A DNA stretch of 45,376 nucleotides from a virus. The translations under genes were made by a program, and so were the position numbers. The notes below the pieces were generated by a model. It searched no databases. It was not told the DNA's origin and saw only the letters and a program-made list of their open reading frames with translations. This document shows positions 21,103-44,558 of this stretch, piece after piece (position 1 is the stretch's first letter; each line of letters starts with the position of its first letter). The stretch is from IMG/VR virus record IMGVR_UViG_3300001828_000020, positions 1 to 45,376 of that record; one strand, written 5' to 3'.

Positions 21103-21309
21103 ATGGGTTATATCAAAGTTAAAGGGCACGATGGTCTTGTCAGAGACGAGACCACAGGTGCTATCTTGAATCATAGCGATTCTGCCATAGAAGCTCGTCG
21201 TAAACAAAGACAACTAAATTCCGCGTTGGACGACATAAATATGTTGAAGAATGAAATCTCTGAAATTAAAACACTACTTAGAGAGTTAGTAAAAAATGCC
21301 AGCAATTAA
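21103..21309 (+). CDS. Small conserved phage protein with C-terminal coiled coil
   Basis: The 68-residue protein begins MGYIKVKGHDGLVRDETTGA, a form I associate with small proteins next to structural genes in T4-like phages. The first half resembles a short beta unit. Residues about 35-66 are heptad-like (LDDINMLKNEISEIKTLL), so a coiled-coil trimer or dimer is plausible. It starts 9 bases after the DUF4815 stop, and its last 14 bases overlap the start of the next gene. That suggests coupled translation and perhaps a role with the flanking fibre proteins. Its function is unknown. Confidence 0.7.
   Translation: MGYIKVKGHDGLVRDETTGAILNHSDSAIEARRKQRQLNSALDDINMLKNEISEIKTLLRELVKNASN
21234..21241 (+). 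promoter_or_regulatory. Possible internal late-promoter box CATAAATA
   Basis: CATAAATA lies inside the small upstream gene, 54 bases before the ATG at 21296. In AT-rich DNA such a match can arise by chance, and the spacing is longer than for the intergenic boxes, so this is tentative. Confidence 0.3.
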
Positions 21310-24300
21310 CGTCGCAAGAACTGATACCTTTGAACAGCAAAGGGTAAAGATTAACGAAATTGGTTCTCAGTTATTCAACGTTACTTCTGGTGGAAGTGAC
21401 TTGTCAACTGGTAATTTGAGACTTGGTGATGGACTAGTAACATCACCAAGTTTAGCATTTGTCAGTGATGATTCTCTAGGTATCTACAAGAATGGAAATG
21501 GAGTTCTGGGTTTTGCCAGTGCTTCTAAAAAGATTGCTGACCTATCTTCAGCATCAACAAAATACTATAGAGACTTCATTATTGAAAAGAATAGTCTCGA
21601 TGGTCTATATATTTCCATCATCAATAGCGGTGAAAATTATGACGGTGGTGACTATACAGATATCCCAGCAATTGGCGGAACTGGAGACTCGGCACTATTA
21701 GGATTTACCGTCGATGGTTTTACTGGTTCTATTACAAACACTGGAACAGGTTATACACCAGCAGCATATCTAAACATTCCTGTTATTGGCGGAAGTGGAA
21801 CAGGAGCTACAATTGACTTTACAGTTCCTCAAATCTCAGGATCTATCACTAACGGTGGTATCAACTATACTCCAGGAACGTATAACGGAGTTGCACTACT
21901 AGGAGGAACTGGGGCAAATATGACCGCAGATTTTGAGGTATCTGCATTTGCCGCAACTGTAACTTCAGGATCAAACTATCCAAATGGTTTATTCAAAAGT
22001 ATTCAATTAACAGGTGGTTCTGGAACTGGAATTAAAGTTAATCTACAAGTTCAGAATGGTGGTGTTCAACCTTTTGGTGGTGTTGATAGTAGTGAGTTTG
22101 TTTCAGTAACATCTCAATATCAAGTTGGAGATGTCTTAACTGGATCTATCAGCACAACTGGAACTCAGACTTTTATTGTTAAATCATCTCTTGGTAACAA
22201 GTATTTCCTTGACGGATTTGAGGGTGGCGATTTCTCTATCCTAAAAGGAAAGACATATGTCTGGAATGTCAATGATTCTACCAGCGATCAACATCCATTT
22301 TATATTTCATCAACTGCAGATGATACCAATTCTATTCTAGGATCTGCAGATGGTGTTACGTATGAGTTAAATGGATCTGTAGTTACTCCAGCAGATTTTC
22401 TTGCAAACTTTACTGCTTCTACTACCAGAACAGTAACATACGCAGTTCCAGCAAACCCAGCAAATGCTACGGTTTATTATAATTGTAGCGTTCACCCAAA
22501 TATGGGTGGTGCTTTAACACATGCAGATCCAAACGTTCAGCAGGGAGGATTCCAGTTAGTAGTTGATACACTAGGTGGTGTAGTTGAAACCGCAACAATT
22601 GCAGACTCTGGAGATGGGCAATACACCCTAGGTGATGTTCTTACTGTTGATCCATTAGAACTATACGATCAAAATAATCTACAAGCTGCTGTAGAAGGTT
22701 CTGGATTCCAACTGACTCTTGGTGGAAATTTTGGTGCAATCGAAGAGTTAGATCAAATCTCTGACTTTGGAACTGGATATCAAGTTGGTGATGTATTAAC
22801 TCTCCCATCTGCAGTTAATAACGTAACCACTTATGCTAGAGGAGAACTAGATTTCTTCGGATTGACATTCACTTCCAATGCTGGTGCAACAGCATTATCA
22901 TGGAGTGGTTCTGCTACTGGCGCTACAAGAACAATTACCAATATTGTTCCTACCAATTCTGGAAACACATCAGGTAGTGGATTAACAATTACTGTTGATG
23001 TCTTGTTTGCTGGCGGTAACTCTTCTTATGATAATGTTACTATTACCGCAAATGGATCTGGATATCTCCCTGGTGATACTTTGTATGTTCCTGGTTCTCA
23101 GTTAGGTGGTGCTGACGGTGCTCCTGGTGGAGGAGGTGGTGGTAACGACCTCTTGATTTCTATTACTAATATCGAACTTGGAAATCCACAAATTAATATT
23201 GGAGATACTACAGGTGTTTCTGTTGGAGACGCTGTTGATCTTATTCAGAATATCAACAACCCAGGTCAAATTCCTGGAGGAACTGTCGTTCAAAGTGTTG
23301 ACAGTGCTACCACAATTACGATGAGTGAGGCACCAACAACTCCTGGTGCTGTTGATCTTAAAATTACAAATCAAAATTTAACATACCTTACTGTTCCAGA
23401 TACTAGCAGCATTGCTACTGGATTCTTAGTAGTATATCAAAGTGGTAACGGTCAGATTATTGATGGAACTACCGTTACTGGTATCATTGATGCTACTACG
23501 GTTGAGATTTCTATTCAGCCAACAACTCCTGGTGCAATGGTTGTTAACTTCGAACCAGAGTATGGTGGAGGAAGTGGATTTGCATATACTATTAATAAAT
23601 TAGGTGTTATTCAAGAAGTAAGTGTTGTTGATGGTGGCAATGGTTATTCTGTTGGCGATATTCTTGGAGTAAATCCTTTTGACCTAGTTCAACCTGAAGT
23701 TTATGCAGTAACAAACTTACAAGTTGATAATATTACTTTTGTAAGTAATGTAATTCCAGATACAACTTTCTCAGTTGGAGATCAAGTTAGAGACGCTGGA
23801 GGAGGAATTTTAGCTTCGCAAGTCGATGTATCAACAACTGTAGCATCTGGCGCTGATGGTGTTTATTCTGGTGTAGCACAAATTGCAACTTCTGGATCTG
23901 GTGTTGGTGCTACTTTTGACGTTCAGAGAGATAACACTGGTGCTGTTCTTTCTGTCGTTATTACAACTGGATCTGAAGGAAGTTTCTATGCAAATAATGA
24001 TACTATCACTCTCCCTGGTGCAGCAGTTGGTGGTTCAACTCCAGCAGACAATATTGTTGTTTCGGTTACAAGCGTTACAGATCCTGGAGATCCAGTAACT
24101 GTAAGAAAGGTAAAATCATCTGGCGGAACGATTGATTATATTATTATTGATACGTTTGGATTTACCGATGGAGGAGTTCTTGTAAAAGATAATGCTCCAA
24201 CAGTTGGATATGATATTGATACTGTTGTTGTTGAGTATCGTTATTATATTGATTTGAATGATGGTAACGGAGCTCAATTAACTCCAAGTTGGACTATGTA

Positions 24301-26794
24301 TGCTGGTAATAGTTACCAGTTTGATTTGAGTGATGGATCAAATGGTTCTCATGTATTTGCACTATCTCAGTTTAGAGATGGTATGTGGGGACCAAGTAGA
24401 TTTGAGGGTGTAGTAACTACACTATCAACCGTAAGTCCTGTTATTACTGTCAATACAACTACAGGTATTCTTCCTGGAATGGTAGTTGTAAAAGAAGATG
24501 GAGATGGCATTCTTGCTGATGGCACTACTGTTGTTAGTGTTGATAGTCCAACACAGTTAACTCTAAGTTCTGCTGGAACTACCGCTGGTGCTATTACTGT
24601 TACCATCATGGGTGCAGAATATACAACTGGTGTAACTAGAGAAGGAGATACTTTAACTATCAAAATAACAGAGTCTACACCAACTCTTTATTACTACTGT
24701 GCTACTGATAATTCAGATCACATAAATGAAGGTGGCGAGGACAATGAAGAAGCTGTATTAACTATTGATCCCGTAAACACAAAGACGTTTGGATCTGGAT
24801 TCCAGTTACTTGTTACTGATGTAGCAAGAGAGGAAATTGTTAAAGGTGAAGTTCTGACGGGTGAATTCACTTGCACACTTTTAACAACACAAGATATCAA
24901 TTCTCCAGAAGGAACAATTAATGCTCTAACAGGATCCACAGTTGAATCTACAACCAGTGTTACAACACCACTATTGCAACCAGCTTCTGGAAACTTAGAC
25001 ATTGCAGTTAAAGTTCCAACAGTTGATAGTGTCAATGTTACAGCATTAAATCTAAACTTTGGTGCTGTTGCATTGATTGATTGTCAGGTTGGAGACTTTA
25101 CAACTGCTGGTTATGTAAGCACCCCCGAAGTCAGGATTGGATCAAACTTGAAGATTGAAGATGTAACATCTTCAATTAGTTCTTTCAACACTCAGGATAT
25201 TAATTTTATCCCAGACTTAGGAAGAATCGTTAATATTGATACTGTTACTGCACTTGCAGTTCCTGTTGGTAACACAAACGAAAGACCACCAGCTGGTATT
25301 GTATTGGACGGTTGTATTCGCTTTAATACAGAAACAAATCAATATGAAGGTTACTCATCAGCAACCCAAGCATGGTCTTCTCTTGGTGGTGTTAGAGACC
25401 TAGATGGCAACACCTACATTCTTGCAGAAGAAACAATTGGTGCGAACGATAATACTCTATGGTTTATTAACGATGATGTGAATACCATCAAGGTGTCTCC
25501 TCAGCATCTTGAATTCGTTAACATGAAGAAGATTCGTTCTGTTAACGTAACCGCTCCAGATTATGTTAATTGGAATGCTAACACTCCTGTGTTAGTAGGT
25601 GATTATCTCAAGTATAAGAACAATCTTTATGAAGTTACTGTAGCAGGAACTACAGCAACCTCTGGTAATGAACCAACTCACACCACTGGAGCTGCTATAA
25701 ATGGTTCAGCAGAACTGACTTATTGGGGTCTAGCAGTTGCTCCATTGACATTTGAAGATATTGAAGAATTGAGAGTTGGTCCTCTTGGTGGTCTTCCCTT
25801 AGTAATCAATGGAGATCTAAGACTACTACAGAACAAAGTAACTACGGATATTAATGATCTTATTCTTCAACCAAATACTGGTAAGAAAGTTACTATTAGT
25901 GCTGAGACTACATTAACTCTTCCTGTTGGAACTGACGCTCAAAGAGGAACTGCAGCGCAGGGTGGTGTTCGTTTCAATACATCATCATTACAATTTGAAG
26001 GTTATGATGGAGCGAACTGGGGTTCTCTCGGTGGAGTTAAAGACGTAGATCAGAACACTTATATTATTCCAGAACTTTCTCCAGGTTCCAATGAAAATGT
26101 TCTATACTTCTATAATGATGGTAGCAACACACTTCAGTTAACAACTACTGCTCTTGATTTCTTTGATGTTGATACTATTAGATCTGTAACCTCAGCAGAG
26201 TTTGAAATTACTGCAAGTTTGATGACATTCAATCAAGCAGAAACAACACTTGATAACACTGCAGCAGATAGAACATTCCTCCATACTAGCAAACAATACT
26301 TTGATCTAGGACTTTCATCTGGTGTTAGTGTCGATCCTGTCTTAAGATTAGATGATCAAGGTGATGTTTATCTGAATACTACATTTGGAACTGGAACATT
26401 CACTGGAGTCAAAGTATTTGACGGTGAGTTGAAAGAGTTTGAGTTAGCAGACGTAAAGATCCTTACTGAAAAAATCACTCTTGTCAAGGGAACTTCTAAC
26501 AATGGTAACTCCATTCTTTACAACACAACAGTGGAGAAAGGAGCAAGAACAACTGTTGCTGCAGAAAATCCATCTACTGGCGAAAGAGAATTCATAGAGT
26601 TTGGCATTATAGATAATGGTGTTGACGTATATCATAGTGAGTATGGTAACCTAAGAACAGGCAACCAGCTAGTCATCCCAACATTTGAAATTACACCGCA
26701 GAATGAAGTCAGAATTAATGTTGAGTTGGGTGCAGACGTTGCTCCAACAGAGTCTGTAATTATTACCTTTGTTTCAAACATCACTAAGAGATAA
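21296..26794 (+). CDS. Fibre-like virion protein with cupredoxin-like domains and repeats (1,832 aa)
   Basis: The N-terminus (MPAINVARTDTFEQQRVKIN, LFNVTSGG, SLGIYKNGNG) is of a type seen in cyanophage structural proteins. Residues about 100-240 hold consecutive Gly-rich strands (IGGTGD, IGGSGTGA, LLGGTGAN, TGGSGTG). A cupredoxin-like domain spans about 315-410 with His333, Cys397, His400 and Met403. A second, degenerate one spans about 1002-1150. It lacks the Met and is split by a ~70-residue module also present in tandem at about 629-755. Near the C-terminus two related blocks (about 1321-1410 and 1544-1625) share RFNT...EGY...W..LGGV.D.D.NTYI. The protein is probably an elongated fibre or baseplate spike component. 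It overlaps the preceding gene by 14 bases and is followed after 3 bases by the next. Copper binding is possible but unproven. Confidence 0.7.
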   Translation: MPAINVARTDTFEQQRVKINEIGSQLFNVTSGGSDLSTGNLRLGDGLVTSPSLAFVSDDSLGIYKNGNGVLGFASASKKIADLSSASTKYYRDFIIEKNSLDGLYISIINSGENYDGGDYTDIPAIGGTGDSALLGFTVDGFTGSITNTGTGYTPAAYLNIPVIGGSGTGATIDFTVPQISGSITNGGINYTPGTYNGVALLGGTGANMTADFEVSAFAATVTSGSNYPNGLFKSIQLTGGSGTGIKVNLQVQNGGVQPFGGVDSSEFVSVTSQYQVGDVLTGSISTTGTQTFIVKSSLGNKYFLDGFEGGDFSILKGKTYVWNVNDSTSDQHPFYISSTADDTNSILGSADGVTYELNGSVVTPADFLANFTASTTRTVTYAVPANPANATVYYNCSVHPNMGGALTHADPNVQQGGFQLVVDTLGGVVETATIADSGDGQYTLGDVLTVDPLELYDQNNLQAAVEGSGFQLTLGGNFGAIEELDQISDFGTGYQVGDVLTLPSAVNNVTTYARGELDFFGLTFTSNAGATALSWSGSATGATRTITNIVPTNSGNTSGSGLTITVDVLFAGGNSSYDNVTITANGSGYLPGDTLYVPGSQLGGADGAPGGGGGGNDLLISITNIELGNPQINIGDTTGVSVGDAVDLIQNINNPGQIPGGTVVQSVDSATTITMSEAPTTPGAVDLKITNQNLTYLTVPDTSSIATGFLVVYQSGNGQIIDGTTVTGIIDATTVEISIQPTTPGAMVVNFEPEYGGGSGFAYTINKLGVIQEVSVVDGGNGYSVGDILGVNPFDLVQPEVYAVTNLQVDNITFVSNVIPDTTFSVGDQVRDAGGGILASQVDVSTTVASGADGVYSGVAQIATSGSGVGATFDVQRDNTGAVLSVVITTGSEGSFYANNDTITLPGAAVGGSTPADNIVVSVTSVTDPGDPVTVRKVKSSGGTIDYIIIDTFGFTDGGVLVKDNAPTVGYDIDTVVVEYRYYIDLNDGNGAQLTPSWTMYAGNSYQFDLSDGSNGSHVFALSQFRDGMWGPSRFEGVVTTLSTVSPVITVNTTTGILPGMVVVKEDGDGILADGTTVVSVDSPTQLTLSSAGTTAGAITVTIMGAEYTTGVTREGDTLTIKITESTPTLYYYCATDNSDHINEGGEDNEEAVLTIDPVNTKTFGSGFQLLVTDVAREEIVKGEVLTGEFTCTLLTTQDINSPEGTINALTGSTVESTTSVTTPLLQPASGNLDIAVKVPTVDSVNVTALNLNFGAVALIDCQVGDFTTAGYVSTPEVRIGSNLKIEDVTSSISSFNTQDINFIPDLGRIVNIDTVTALAVPVGNTNERPPAGIVLDGCIRFNTETNQYEGYSSATQAWSSLGGVRDLDGNTYILAEETIGANDNTLWFINDDVNTIKVSPQHLEFVNMKKIRSVNVTAPDYVNWNANTPVLVGDYLKYKNNLYEVTVAGTTATSGNEPTHTTGAAINGSAELTYWGLAVAPLTFEDIEELRVGPLGGLPLVINGDLRLLQNKVTTDINDLILQPNTGKKVTISAETTLTLPVGTDAQRGTAAQGGVRFNTSSLQFEGYDGANWGSLGGVKDVDQNTYIIPELSPGSNENVLYFYNDGSNTLQLTTTALDFFDVDTIRSVTSAEFEITASLMTFNQAETTLDNTAADRTFLHTSKQYFDLGLSSGVSVDPVLRLDDQGDVYLNTTFGTGTFTGVKVFDGELKEFELADVKILTEKITLVKGTSNNGNSILYNTTVEKGARTTVAAENPSTGEREFIEFGIIDNGVDVYHSEYGNLRTGNQLVIPTFEITPQNEVRINVELGADVAPTESVIITFVSNITKR
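22240..22520 (+). other. Cupredoxin-like domain 1 with a complete type-1-copper-like ligand set
   Basis: Within the 1,832-residue protein, GKTYVWNVNDS is followed by QHPFYIS (His333) and ends YYNCSVHPNMGG (Cys397, His400, Met403). The order His...Cys-x2-His-x2-Met resembles the ligand order of plastocyanin-type proteins, though the spacing between the last two is shorter than in plastocyanin. The fold call is by motif only. Confidence 0.55.
24299..24730 (+). other. Cupredoxin-like domain 2, split by an inserted module
   Basis: The domain starts with YAGNSYQFDLSDGSNGSHVF (His1019), continues to MWGPSRFEG, and resumes at EYTTGVTREGDTLTIKI...YYYC (Cys1135). Between the two parts lies a module at about residues 1040-1107 (VNTTTGILPGMVVVKEDG, GTTVVSVDSPTQLTLSS) that also occurs twice elsewhere in the same protein. 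The Cys is followed by ATDNSDH, with no Met, so metal binding is doubtful. Confidence 0.55.
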
Positions 26795-40528: not shown

Positions 40529-40727
40529 ACTATTGGCAATTTGCCACCATTCAATCCTACAAAGATATCCAGAAACTAAAAACCTGGATGATTTGAATAG
40601 AGATAAAATGTTTGAGTTAGCAGAAAAAAATAAGCATATTCTGGATGCCAATCCAGAAGCAGAGCACATTTACATGGAGAAAGTGATTGTAGATTATGGC
40701 GATTTTCTCAATTCCAATCAACACTAA
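40506..40727 (+). CDS. Small unassigned helical protein (73 aa)
   Basis: The protein is predicted to be helical and acidic to neutral (LELLAICHHSILQRYPETKN, then LNRDKMFELAEKNKHIL, ending IVDYGDFLNSNQH), without recognisable domains. It overlaps the upstream gene by 23 bases and the downstream U32-methyltransferase gene by 32 bases. Retention of such a dense overlap suggests a real gene rather than a chance frame. Nearness to the fusion enzyme raises the possibility of an accessory subunit, but nothing in the sequence shows it. Confidence 0.55.
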   Translation: MANQRHLELLAICHHSILQRYPETKNLDDLNRDKMFELAEKNKHILDANPEAEHIYMEKVIVDYGDFLNSNQH

Positions 40728-42378
40728 GTTATCAGAAGAATTTGTAGAGGGAACTTTCATTCCTTTTTTAAAGGAATATAAACATCTCATTTACGATATG
40801 TATTTTACATGTCGTATGCCTCCCTTCACCCAAGATGCTATGGGTGATACAATTGATGGTGATATTAGAGAGACTACATTTAATGCTCTATACATTTCAG
40901 AACAAACTGGAATTCCTCTTTCTGCTACTTTCAATAATATCCAGGTGACTCCCAACCAGGAGAATCTGGATATTTTTATTGCCAATTTTAGACCATTATA
41001 TGATGCAGGGGTCCGCATTGTAACTTTACCTCATACCTCTTGGGTGATGACAGGTCAGATTCAAAAAGAATTTCCAGATCTGTTTATCAAGAACACTATC
41101 CTCAGAGAAGTAACTAGACCAAATGAGATTGTCAATCTTGCAAAGGCAGGATTCCACTATATCAATCTAGACAGAGATCTCATGCGTGACAGAGATCAAT
41201 TAGATAAGATTATGGAAGCAAAAGAATATTGTGCTTCTATTGGCAAACCAGTTAAGATCTCTTTGCTTGCTAATGAATGGTGCTGGGGTGGTTGTCCTAT
41301 CATGCCAGAACATTATCATTATAATATGCAAAGAGGTCCACAGGATCCTCAGTATTTCAATAGTGATATTAGTAGAATATCTTGCTCTAGTTGGGATGAG
41401 TATGATCCAGCTACAGCACTTAAAGCAGCAACTCTTCCTCCATGGAAAAAAGACTGGGAAGAGTTTATTGATTTGGGAATTGATGTGTTTAAAATGCATG
41501 GCAGAGAAAATGCCATGCGTCTATCAGAAACAATTGATATTATTAAACGTTGGGAATCTGGTGATGAACTCTTATATCCCCAGTTTAATGACTACATTGA
41601 AGACGTAACTCTCGAAGAGAAACCAATTGATATATGGAGAGAGAAGATCAAGACATGTGGATTTGATTGTTGGAAGTGCAACTACTGCGATTCTGTCGTT
41701 CAATCAAGAATGAAGAGAAGCGATAGAGAGATGGATTCTGATGTTAAACTTGTTCTCGAATCTATTGATAAAGCAGCAAGGGGTGATAGCAACTATAACC
41801 CAGAAGGATATAAGTATCGTGGTTTATCATCAGATACCGTTAGACATTTCTTGAATAATCTTTGTTCCAAAGAAGATGGTATATATCTAGAACTTGGAGT
41901 TCATGCTGGTAGCACATTCTTTGCTGCTACTATGGATAGAGATTTAGAGTCATTTGCGGTAGATGATTATTCTGAAAAATCAGTTTCTCCATTCAGAGAT
42001 GATTTAAGTTATGAAACATATGAAGATCCAAAAAAAGTATTCTTCAAGGGTCTAAAAGAAAAGCAATATTTCTGTCCTGTCAATATTCAAGACTTAACTC
42101 CAAGACATATCCACAAACAAGCTAATATTGTTTTCTATGACGCTAGTCATGACCCACAGGAACAGTATGATAATCTAACATATCTGATTCCAGCATTTGA
42201 TGATAAGTTTATTCTTGTTATTGATGATGCAAACTTTATGGGTGTGGTAGAATCTGCCAACTTCTTTGTCGAACAAAATAATTTAAATGTATTGTTCGAG
42301 AGAAAAATTCTTACCAAAGTTCCAGAAGATCCTAATGGATGGTGGAACGGTCTTTATATTATGGTTATTGCAAAATGA
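40696..42378 (+). CDS. U32-family (Fe-S hydroxylase-type) domain fused to a class I methyltransferase (560 aa)
   Basis: Residues about 1-300 follow the peptidase-U32-like pattern: an opening barrel part ending YDMYFTCRMP (Cys39), GVRIVTLPHTSWV, FHYINLDRDLMRDRDQL, KISLLANEWCWGGCPIMPEH (Cys196, Cys200) and GIDVFKMHGRENA. Cys39, Cys179, Cys196 and Cys200 recall the [4Fe-4S] ligand layout of the UbiV branch; Cys230 is also available. Known relatives (UbiU/UbiV, RlhA, TrhP) take part in hydroxylation, not proteolysis. A CGFDCWKCNYC cluster (321-331) marks the junction. Residues about 370-560 resemble Methyltransf_24: YLELGVHAGSTF (397-408), FAVDDYS, FYDASHDPQEQYDNL (480-494) and ILVIDDAN (506-513). 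The gene overlaps its upstream neighbour by 32 bases and the next by ATGA. The substrate is unknown; hydroxylation followed by methylation is only a hypothesis. Confidence 0.75.
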   Translation: MAIFSIPINTKLSEEFVEGTFIPFLKEYKHLIYDMYFTCRMPPFTQDAMGDTIDGDIRETTFNALYISEQTGIPLSATFNNIQVTPNQENLDIFIANFRPLYDAGVRIVTLPHTSWVMTGQIQKEFPDLFIKNTILREVTRPNEIVNLAKAGFHYINLDRDLMRDRDQLDKIMEAKEYCASIGKPVKISLLANEWCWGGCPIMPEHYHYNMQRGPQDPQYFNSDISRISCSSWDEYDPATALKAATLPPWKKDWEEFIDLGIDVFKMHGRENAMRLSETIDIIKRWESGDELLYPQFNDYIEDVTLEEKPIDIWREKIKTCGFDCWKCNYCDSVVQSRMKRSDREMDSDVKLVLESIDKAARGDSNYNPEGYKYRGLSSDTVRHFLNNLCSKEDGIYLELGVHAGSTFFAATMDRDLESFAVDDYSEKSVSPFRDDLSYETYEDPKKVFFKGLKEKQYFCPVNIQDLTPRHIHKQANIVFYDASHDPQEQYDNLTYLIPAFDDKFILVIDDANFMGVVESANFFVEQNNLNVLFERKILTKVPEDPNGWWNGLYIMVIAK

Positions 42379-42941
42379 ATTCATTCAGACATCAGTATAT
42401 GGTAATTCATCTAGATGATGATTTCTTTCCATTGTTAGAGAAAGCATTGGAACTACATACGGAATATGAACCGTGCAAAACAGATTACTGGGATGGAAAA
42501 GAATATGCCAGTAGAGATCATCAAGATCGTAGTTCCAAAGCTTGTTTCGTTGACGATAGCAAAGTCTATGAACTAGTTGATGGTCTCGTTCGATTTGCAA
42601 ACTCAAAGTGTGAGTGGAATCTAGATGTAGATTTTATCGAACCACTGCAACTAACTAAGTATGATGTCGATGATTTCTATGGTTGGCATATTGACGAATC
42701 TAATTGGACTCCAGGAAAAAGACCAAATGGTAGAATTAGAAAGATTAGTTTCTCTATTCTTTTGAACGATGAGTTTGAAGGGGGAGAATTTCAAATTAAA
42801 ACTAATGAACTAAAAACAATTGATCTAAAGAAAAAAGATATCATACTCTTTCATGCTGATACACCACATCAAGTTACTCCTGTAACTTCTGGTGTTAGGC
42901 ACTCTTTAGTTGGATGGACTCAAGGACCAGCATACCGATGA
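42375..42941 (+). CDS. 2OG-Fe(II) oxygenase, PKHD-hydroxylase type (188 aa)
   Basis: This is a double-stranded beta-helix dioxygenase. It has YGWHIDESN with Fe ligands His105 and Asp107, the strand RKISFSILLNDEFEGGEFQI, the distal His165 in FHADTPHQVTPV, and Arg175 in GVRHSLVGW as the likely 2-oxoglutarate anchor. This layout (HxD, GGEF, PHxVxPVxxGxRxSLVGW) is that of PKHD-type prolyl or related hydroxylases. The enzyme uses O2 and 2-oxoglutarate to hydroxylate a substrate; which one cannot be read from sequence. The start ATG 42375 sits in an ATGA overlap with the previous stop; a longer frame from 42339 would add 12 residues inside the upstream gene. It is the first of five oxygenase genes. 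Confidence 0.85.
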   Translation: MNSFRHQYMVIHLDDDFFPLLEKALELHTEYEPCKTDYWDGKEYASRDHQDRSSKACFVDDSKVYELVDGLVRFANSKCEWNLDVDFIEPLQLTKYDVDDFYGWHIDESNWTPGKRPNGRIRKISFSILLNDEFEGGEFQIKTNELKTIDLKKKDIILFHADTPHQVTPVTSGVRHSLVGWTQGPAYR

Positions 42942-43501
42942 AATTTATTAAAGAATATCAGTTAGACGATCTAACAATTTGCGATAAACTTATAGAACTA
43001 TTTTGGGACGCTCATGAAAAAGAGTTGACTTACGCTGGTCGTGTAGGCGGTGGCAGTGTTATTCCAGAAATTAAAAAAAGTATTGATTTCTTTGTAGAAG
43101 AAGGTGGAGAACTAGGTCCACCAGAAAAATACAAATTTGATTTATATAAGAATCAGTTGGATGGATTTATATCTCAATACTTGAGAGAATTGAATATTGA
43201 GAATCAAGAATTTGTAATGAAGCGTCTACCACAAATTCAATACTATAAACCAGGAGATGGGTTTTATACTTGGCATGTAGATGGATCTGGTTCTGATGGA
43301 TGTGATAGAGCATTTGTTTTTATTACATACTTGAATGATGTTCCTGGTGGAGGAACTGAGTTTTTCTATCAAGACTACACCGTAGAAGCAAAGAAGGGAA
43401 ATACAGTTATTTTCCCAGCTGGTCTGACACATAAACATAGAGGTCAGATATCAGAAGAGCATGAAAAATATATTATGACAGGATGGCTTTGGTGGGTATG
43501 A
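42938..43501 (+). CDS. 2OG-Fe(II) oxygenase, prolyl-4-hydroxylase-like (187 aa)
   Basis: Fe ligands are His113 and Asp115 in FYTWHVDGSG and His165 in FPAGLTHKHRG. The core strands FVFITYLNDVPGGGTEFFY are typical of prolyl-4-hydroxylase-like enzymes, and Lys177 (EKYIMTGWLWW) stands where these enzymes use Lys to bind 2-oxoglutarate. The N-terminal ~95 residues form a helical part starting MKFIKEYQLDDLTICDKLI. The chosen ATG 42938 overlaps the previous stop as ATGA; a start at 42914 would add eight residues within the upstream gene. A protein substrate such as proline is possible by family analogy, but free amino acids or other molecules cannot be excluded. Confidence 0.85.
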   Translation: MKFIKEYQLDDLTICDKLIELFWDAHEKELTYAGRVGGGSVIPEIKKSIDFFVEEGGELGPPEKYKFDLYKNQLDGFISQYLRELNIENQEFVMKRLPQIQYYKPGDGFYTWHVDGSGSDGCDRAFVFITYLNDVPGGGTEFFYQDYTVEAKKGNTVIFPAGLTHKHRGQISEEHEKYIMTGWLWWV

Positions 43502-44079
43502 TTGAACCTATTGTTATTAAAGATGTATTATCAGAATCCGAAAGACTGACATTATGGGATTACTTTGATCGCAAATCTCCCTCAATGAATAGTCTTGCTA
43601 CATGGACTTACAACAACGCTTCATACGGTAAAGGTGATCCTGTCTCATGGCAACATCCTCTTAGAACCGATTTAATTTTTACCAAGTGTGCTACTACAGT
43701 AAAATTAAAAATGATGAAGCACCTACGCAGAGATCTTAAACTTTGTAAGATTCATGCTAACGGTCAAACAGCAGGACAGAATACTCTTTTCCACAGAGAC
43801 TGGGAAGAACATAATGTATGGACTTTTATCTATTTCAATCAACCATATTGGAATATTGAATGGGGTGGTGAGTTTGTATGCCAGACTCCCGATGAAGAAT
43901 ACCACTTCACTCCATATGTTCCAAACACAGGGGTGTTCATTCCATCTAACTGGTTGCATAAAGGACAACCACCAAACAGCTTGATTGGAAATGAAATCAG
44001 GACTACAATTGCTTTTTCTTTTTGTGATCCAGATATTCATGATAAGATTATCGCACAGACAACAAGAAAATGGTATTAG
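43498..44079 (+). CDS. 2OG-Fe(II) oxygenase with HxD...H...R site (193 aa)
   Basis: The active-site set is His99 and Asp101 in LFHRDWEEHNVW, distal His154 in FIPSNWLHKGQPP, and Arg168 in EIRTTIAFSF. The central strands WTFIYFNQPYWNIEWGGEFV match the usual jelly-roll core. The preference for several Trp around the site (TWTYNNASYG, WEEHNVW) differs from the two preceding paralogues, so the substrate is probably different. The start at 43498 overlaps the previous stop as ATGA; five extra residues would come from an upstream ATG at 43483. The gene overlaps the next by 10 bases. Confidence 0.8.
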   Translation: MIEPIVIKDVLSESERLTLWDYFDRKSPSMNSLATWTYNNASYGKGDPVSWQHPLRTDLIFTKCATTVKLKMMKHLRRDLKLCKIHANGQTAGQNTLFHRDWEEHNVWTFIYFNQPYWNIEWGGEFVCQTPDEEYHFTPYVPNTGVFIPSNWLHKGQPPNSLIGNEIRTTIAFSFCDPDIHDKIIAQTTRKWY

Positions 44080-44558
44080 GAATCAGAGAGTATCCAGTTG
44101 ATATACAACCAGATGATCTAGTCAATTTTATTGACACATTATCATACACAGATCATCCCCATGTTACAAAGACGGATGATAATTTTCTGGAGCATGATGT
44201 TCCAGTAATTAAAAAACTTCGATGGTCTTTCTATGATGCTTGCTCTAGATATTGGGGTATGGACGTATTTGATTTTAATATAGATGCTTGGGTGTATGTT
44301 GATTGGAAAGGCAATAAAAATGAACCATACATGCACGCACATAACTTAGAGAATCCATATACGTTATCTGGTATAATGTATCTTACTCTTCCTGGCAATT
44401 CTGAAACTACGATGTTTCCTATTCCAAAAAGAGATCCATATTTTTTACCGAAGAAATTATTTACATGGTTCATATTCCCTTCAAATTTACCACACCTTCC
44501 TGGAAAAGGAGATGAGGATGAAAAACGTTATTGTCTCAGTGCCGATTTATACGCATGA
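44070..44558 (+). CDS. Putative 2OG-Fe(II) oxygenase, HxH variant (162 aa)
   Basis: The C-terminal half fits the small putative oxygenase family with an HxHxN entry: NEPYMHAHNLENPYTLSGIM (His89, His91), then YLTLPGNSETTMFP, FTWFIFPSNLPHLPG (distal His142) and KRYCLSADLYA (Arg153). The usual Asp of the HxD pair is replaced by His, as is common in this family, so metal ligation needs care. The N-terminal ~80 residues contain a predicted substrate-side region (WSFYDACSRYWGMDVFDFN). The start overlaps the upstream gene by 10 bases and the end overlaps the next as ATGA. Confidence 0.7.
   Translation: MVLGIREYPVDIQPDDLVNFIDTLSYTDHPHVTKTDDNFLEHDVPVIKKLRWSFYDACSRYWGMDVFDFNIDAWVYVDWKGNKNEPYMHAHNLENPYTLSGIMYLTLPGNSETTMFPIPKRDPYFLPKKLFTWFIFPSNLPHLPGKGDEDEKRYCLSADLYA

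Follow-up and report, generated by a model that had tools for sequence, protein, structure and literature searches.

Plastocyanin, the product of the host-derived gene petE, is the copper protein that we know from cyanophages (PMC3037559). In the cyanophage records considered here, PetE (PF00127) is encoded by a separate gene, with an open frame of 114–134 aa, a hydrophobic N-terminal leader as judged by eye, and no virion domain. In amicyanin, the type-1 copper ligands are His53, Cys92, His95 and Met98, the last three of which have the spacing Cys-x2-His-x2-Met (PMC12723479). A host-contacting virion protein with bound metal is described in phage T4, where gp37 of the long tail fibre holds iron through paired histidines (HxH) and is not a cupredoxin (PMC11705849). 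For a copper-type cupredoxin domain in phage virion proteins, no open-access paper was found, by title or start of abstract, among the matches listed.

Here, a domain of a virion protein from a marine phage is described. This domain (domain 1) shares the ligand order and the Cys-x2-His-x2-Met spacing of amicyanin. In contrast to amicyanin, which is a free electron carrier, it is internal to a virion protein of 1832 aa. Based on its sequence and predicted structure, domain 1 is probably a cupredoxin that has all the ligands of a mononuclear type-1 copper site and, most likely, binds copper; we assign this reading a probability of roughly 0.65. Taken as a statement about the ligand set and a remote ancestry, the copper reading is well supported by these sequences and models.

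The domain lies in a virion structural protein

The window, meaning the whole stretch of DNA that was analyzed, is a virus record of 45,376 bases. Its virion gene set is that of a marine T4-like cyanophage and is arranged in the following order.

First: the end of a baseplate wedge protein (phrog_219)
Second: a virion structural protein of 3525 aa (phrog_4406)
Third: a baseplate wedge subunit (phrog_438)
Fourth: a protein of 2721 aa (phrog_358)
Fifth: a virion protein of 68 aa (phrog_473)
Sixth, at 21296–26794, plus strand: the carrier of domain 1, a virion structural protein of 1832 aa (open reading frame and profile phrog_6005)
Seventh: a virion protein of 166 aa (phrog_5449)
Eighth: a tail fibre protein of 3038 aa (phrog_5342)

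The carrier gene is flanked in the window by baseplate-type and tail-fibre genes. The whole protein matches the PHROG profile of the virion structural protein phrog_6005 with 1749.6 bits (E 0), and its orthologues are labelled 'virion structural protein' in all nine of the named cyanophage records examined, in agreement with a preliminary description of this DNA that had placed the domain on the virion, and there on a putative fibre. In each of these nine records, the next gene downstream of the carrier encodes a small structural protein, and a gene for a tail fibre, a fibre-like protein or a baseplate wedge comes after it. Upstream of the carrier, a large virion-type or DUF4815 protein is found in eight of the nine (the exception is S-B43), and in four a small virion gene is annotated between this large protein and the carrier. 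One of the nine annotates the carrier 'similar to T4-GC_350'. Across 50,697 phage records, the C-terminal part of the carrier is present in 54, with at least 80% of the query covered in 48 of these. Forty-one proteins have been reported from S-SM1 virions (PMC3037559), and no mention of the carrier family among them was found in the main text of that source. The carrier contains 5 Cys, 9 His and 11 Met residues.

Domain 1 presents the candidate ligands of a type-1 copper site

Domain 1 and its four candidate ligands are located as follows, where rows refer to the 22-row alignment described below.

22151–22540, plus strand: domain 1, predicted cupredoxin fold, residues about 286–415 (ligand-masked profile, E 5.3e-27)
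22292–22294, plus strand: His333, first copper-type ligand, immediately before a strand (22 of 22 rows)
22484–22486, plus strand: Cys397, ligand and last residue of a strand (22 of 22 rows)
22493–22495, plus strand: His400, second His ligand (22 of 22 rows)
22502–22504, plus strand: Met403, axial-type ligand (Met in 8 and Gln in 14 of the 22 rows)

These residues present the type-1 ligand set, in which a His is followed in order by Cys, His and Met or Gln at the expected strand places. The preliminary description had named the same four residues and had seen in them the order of a type-1 site; both points hold, with the codons starting at 22292, 22484, 22493 and 22502 of the open reading frame. 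The span that it gave, 22240–22520, does contain the ligands, whereas the domain itself is wider. Its view that the closely spaced Cys-x2-His-x2-Met is unusual was mistaken, as amicyanin has this very spacing (PMC12723479).

Three other accounts of the motif were rejected. Chance seldom reproduces the ligands of domain 1: when the carrier's own composition was shuffled, C-x2-H-x2-M arose in 28 of 200,000 shuffles, and the same motif with a His 51–76 residues before the Cys arose in 1 of 200,000. A disulfide bond was dismissed because the window copy of the domain has a single Cys (a second Cys is found in some orthologues), and a multicopper oxidase because domain 1 has no further His cluster.

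The preliminary description had named conservation of the four residues as a check, and relatives of domain 1 were collected in two scans of IMG/VR. The first gave 32 loci, with two of the six search words overlapping the ligands; the second, an alignment scan with both search words off the ligands, gave 38 loci, mostly on the same contigs. A first count used 31 rows including the window, 18 of them distinct, with the short fragments L032 and L033 excluded. Among the 18 distinct rows, His333 is present in 18 of 18, Cys397 and His400 are present in 17 of 17 (one row ends early), and position 403 is Met in 7 and Gln in 10. In the 22-row alignment, which was chosen from both scans and includes three identical rows, His333, Cys397 and His400 are likewise invariant and the fourth position alternates between Met and Gln. 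As these rows are close relatives and 41 columns of the alignment are invariant, the invariant ligands by themselves are weak evidence. The alternation at position 403 is the telling part of the conservation, since type-1 copper sites are known in which Gln is the axial ligand (PMC4059628). Non-conserved ligands, which the preliminary description would have taken as a refutation, were not seen in these rows.

Predicted structure of domain 1

An AlphaFold2 model of domain 1 (148 aa; pLDDT 87, pTM 0.81) consists mostly of strands. In the numbering of the model, His58 (His333) stands just before strand 60–63, Cys122 (Cys397) ends strand 117–122, and both His125 and Met128 are found in the loop ahead of strand 130–135. 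This predicted arrangement of strands and ligands is that expected of cupredoxins, and the prediction agrees with the cupredoxin fold, a Greek-key beta-sandwich of about eight strands, at TM-scores below 0.5 (0.42–0.46 to rusticyanins). A Foldseek search with the model returned 106 PDB matches at E ≤ 0.001, the top one being rusticyanin (E 1.8e-5). Rusticyanin is also the top match by VIA-align (2cal), with an rmsd of 2.7 over 103 residues, about 15% identity over the aligned residues, and a Z of 8.9 that is barely higher than the level the tool calls common. Rusticyanin differs from the phage domain in being a free electron carrier, and its Cys-to-Met spacing is longer. The Foldseek list also includes the N-terminal domain of protein arginine deiminases, proteins that are cupredoxin-like and are not known to have copper ligands. 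In a comparison with viral models, the named matches include baseplate wedge tail fibre connectors, fibre-like proteins and a virion protein of S-TIM5, and the top ranks are nameless.

Relation to known copper proteins

Domain 1 of the window has no match in Pfam even at E 10. It falls outside PF00127 (Copper-bind, plastocyanin/azurin; no match at E ≤ 10), a family that also has no match in the whole window record, and outside the amicyanin family TIGR02657 of NCBIfam (no match at E ≤ 1); the NCBIfam plastocyanin model does not match it either. Among 27 diverse relatives of the domain, PF00127 matches 6 at E ≤ 1 (best 0.005), and TIGR02657 weakly matches 3 (best 0.0094). The bacterial-contig relative L321 scores 20.2 bits against PF00127 (cut-off 21.2). 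In Pfam, the relatives come closest to PF25489 (At5g54830-like), which weakly matches 7 of the 27 at E ≤ 1 (best E 2e-6) but not the window domain. PF25489 is not a copper family and is, to go by its name, described from a plant protein rather than from phages.

A profile of 27 diverse domains of the family (profile A3) has 24 PDB matches at E ≤ 10, and 17 of these are copper proteins: nitrite reductases, multicopper oxidases, plastocyanins, amicyanins, pseudoazurin and azurin. The single match below 0.001 is a copper nitrite reductase, for which the Cys-x2-His-x2-Met loop stretch alone gives an E of 0.33. In addition, profile-profile alignment with five plastocyanins of cyanophages is weak (E 8.4e-4, calculated for one comparison; probability 24%) and places each of the four ligands opposite its counterpart. 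The domain family is likely to be related to type-1 copper proteins, though remotely. A plastocyanin gene of PF00127 is also present in five of the eight named cyanophage records that are analyzed with profile A3 below.

One further match was judged to be due to chance. Ribosomal protein L31, the sole PDB match of the single domain (E 0.012) and again the top match of a 17-row profile (0.0082), pairs its two stretches with the domain in the wrong order. The next match of the 17-row profile is a copper oxidase at 0.13.

Orthologues of the carrier contain a second domain

The carrier was compared with its orthologues from nine named records among the 54 that have its C-terminal part. Domain 1 is found in five of the nine, in each case with the ligands His, Cys, His and Met (HCHM), and is absent from four. 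In the orthologue from Sf-CH1b (L362), the loop of domain 1 has the longer spacing Cys-x2-His-x4-Met, as in the phage plastocyanins. The carrier also contains a second, cupredoxin-like domain (domain 2), which is split by an insert.

24236–24421, plus strand: N-terminal half of domain 2, residues about 981–1042 (profile match), with His1019 at 24350
24422–24607, plus strand: insert that splits domain 2 (gap between the two profile matches)
24608–24739, plus strand: C-terminal half of domain 2, residues about 1105–1148 (profile match)
24698, 24719 and 24728, plus strand: Cys1135, His1142 and Glu1145 of the domain 2 loop, Cys-x6-His-x2-Glu

Within the window's lineage, His1019, Cys1135, His1142 and Glu1145 are each present in 30 of 30 sequences (20 distinct), as found by a search that did not demand these residues; of its 36 loci, 7 stop too soon to be counted. 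Domain 2 is present in all nine orthologues, with HCHM in three and His/Cys/His/Glu in two. In the remaining four, Cys and the second His are lost, and three of these four retain the first His. One reading of this history, drawn from the sequences, is that Met was changed to Glu together with a lengthening of the loop. The AlphaFold2 model of domain 2 is poor (pLDDT 59), with its well-predicted part mostly in the inserted stretch, and the domain 2 site is therefore read from sequence only.

The composition of this second site bears on an explanation in which zinc, iron or some other metal naturally occupies the site, which would then not function as a copper site. Domain 2 of the window combines an axial Glu with a lengthened loop and would offer a harder ligand set, and type-1 sites can take zinc under copper scarcity. 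The long fibre of phage T4, with iron held through its HxH motifs, gives a case of another metal on a phage fibre (PMC11705849). In contrast, the choice between Met and Gln in domain 1 and the matches to copper proteins fit copper best. We consider it rather unlikely that another metal is the natural one and retain copper as the preferred metal of domain 1.

Ligand residues are kept or lost together in the wider family

By tblastn at E ≤ 1e-3, the domain was found in 246 of 50,697 phage records, all of which are named cyanophages or Synechococcus/Prochlorococcus phages. It is spread as a module among connector, baseplate-type and tail-fibre proteins. With megablast, one marine relative had no match among phage records. 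Two DNA pattern scans were run with Tyr-Tyr, Cys, His and Gly-Gly fixed and the axial residue free; the two sets overlap, and redundancy was kept. Among the matches listed, the axial residue in the first scan is Met in 187 of 188 and Glu in 1, and in the second, for those in frame, it is Met in 114 of 119, with Gln in 2 and Tyr, Glu and Arg in 1 each. The Glu comes from the same domain in both scans. For the listed matches with at least 90 residues ahead of the motif, a His is present within 25–90 residues upstream in 143 of 163 and 81 of 102, and the motifs that lack it do so in part because of split domains.

When the four ligand columns of the profile were masked, 314 distinct matches were obtained in the DNA collected, 91 of which (some of them split domains) miss a ligand column and were left untallied. 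The 223 that span all four columns consist of 204 HCHM, 13 HCHQ, 1 HCHE, 1 DCHM (a short match), 1 NCHM and 3 site-less domains, and 199 of them contain the very motif that selected their DNA. The other 24 consist of 16 HCHM, 5 HCHQ and 3 site-less domains; 11 of these, including all three that are site-less, stem from the eight named cyanophage records.

The least selected test is a run of profile A3 over these eight records, which gave 27 matches. Cys, His and Met or Gln occur together, with the upstream His, in 14 of the 27, none of the three occurs in 13, and no match is mixed; this count is not blind and mixed sites may be under-found, because the ligand columns, as well as two of the 27 matches, went into A3. 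The records themselves were chosen from matches to the window domain, and one of them, metaG-MbCM1, may be a metagenome assembly rather than an isolate. For some of the 27 rows, the loop was read from the reading frame by eye where the profile alignment ended early, and one of the 13 site-less matches (P-RSM4, 89.5 kb, E 5.9e-5) may be no relative. As orthologous copies are not independent, few events of keeping or loss lie behind the two groups. By our own labels for the copies, the site is complete at the connector C-terminus (5 of 5) and in the first copy of the baseplate-type protein (5 of 5), and is missing from the second baseplate-type copy (0 of 5 complete) and from the fibre-type protein (0 of 5 complete; an annotated tail fibre in Syn9). 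The upstream His is kept in 4 of the 13 site-less copies, a looser linkage than that among Cys, His and Met. The fold profile still matches the second baseplate-type copies (L327, L332, L335, L339 and L345), from which the Cys, His and Met of the site are gone.

Within the limits of this test, the joint keeping or loss of Cys, His and Met favours one functional metal site, and the persistence of site-less copies shows that the fold survives without it. Such persistence, in baseplate-type and fibre proteins alike, would be expected if the cupredoxin fold were structural only, that is, an immunoglobulin-type spacer or adhesion module in which the four residues are metal-free in the virion. The loss of the domain 2 site in four of nine orthologues points the same way, as does the assembly of virion proteins in the cytoplasm, where little free copper is on offer. 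Against a purely structural fold stand the lack of any mixed site in the A3 run, the axial place, which in the 22-row alignment and among the matches listed in the pattern scans is Met or Gln and seldom another residue, and the one orthologue that changes the length of its loop yet keeps all four ligands. A metal-free domain 1 is thus judged improbable, and copper binding remains the favoured reading.

Relatives outside cyanophages

The domain is also encoded at fifteen loci from marine bacterial bins and single cells, and the Cys-x2-His-x2-Met loop is present in all of them. A complete copper-type domain is located near the C-terminus of T7-type tail fibres with a PF03906 N-terminus in two SAR11 contigs (L315 and L316), where the gene preceding the fibre matches an internal virion protein. 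Given this carrier and this neighbour, both contigs look like phage DNA. The Bacteroidetes contig L319 has the domain inside a repeat protein. In the Woeseiaceae contig L321, the domain is part of a cadherin-type protein, two neighbours of which match no PHROG. Judging from these sequences, bacterial surface proteins may also use the domain, and settings of this kind would suit the metal-free spacer or adhesion module considered above. At another locus (L318), one fibre-like neighbour stands beside the domain.

Possible roles of the site

The preliminary description had put forward redox sensing, stability or host binding in seawater as purposes that a virion-borne copper domain could serve. 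If domain 1 binds copper, its likeliest role, at odds somewhat short of even, is that of a metal staple. The ion would join the loop of His333 to the loop with Cys397, His400 and Met403, and the stapled end of the beta-sandwich would provide a rigid, resistant face that touches another virion protein or the cell. Copper would perhaps be loaded after lysis, because the N-terminus of the carrier, read by eye, shows no export signal. Electron transfer as such is less likely, since no redox partner or second metal centre is seen in domain 1.

A working device of another kind has also been considered by analogy, in which the site would take up electrons at the cell surface or act as a copper lure that exploits host copper uptake. 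The complete type-1 ligand set and the nature of the carriers, which are cyanophages and phage-like SAR11 contigs, would be in keeping with such a device, and an iron Trojan-horse analogue is in print (PMC11705849). Against it, the analysis found neither a redox partner nor a second copper centre nor a receptor, and the site can disappear from copies of the domain while the protein stays. Such a device is considered quite improbable, and the staple remains the preferred role.

The sequences and models suggest that marine cyanobacterial viruses of this kind may carry metal on their particles. The carriers of the ligand set are abundant marine viruses, and the presence of a type-1 ligand set in virion proteins across marine phages leads to testable questions, namely whether copper is found on the particles and whether infection depends on it. 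A broader and rather doubtful proposal is that marine cyanophages and SAR11 phages have several real copper sites per particle. Connector, baseplate-type and fibre proteins would provide classic His/Cys/His/Met-or-Gln sites, and in this lineage the carrier would add its second, re-cut His/Cys/His/Glu site. Their particles would then be copper-holding, metal-dependent attachment machines and a pool of copper ligands in seawater.

Other reading frames in the window

Two further regions of the window were recorded. Positions 42339–44558 contain four small overlapping open reading frames with the PHROG names 2OG-Fe(II) oxygenase or endonuclease V (best PHROGs phrog_61, phrog_61, phrog_274 and phrog_81). 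Positions 40696–42378 encode a protein of 560 aa and unknown function (phrog_1458) with a Trp-Cys-Trp-Gly-Gly-Cys stretch.
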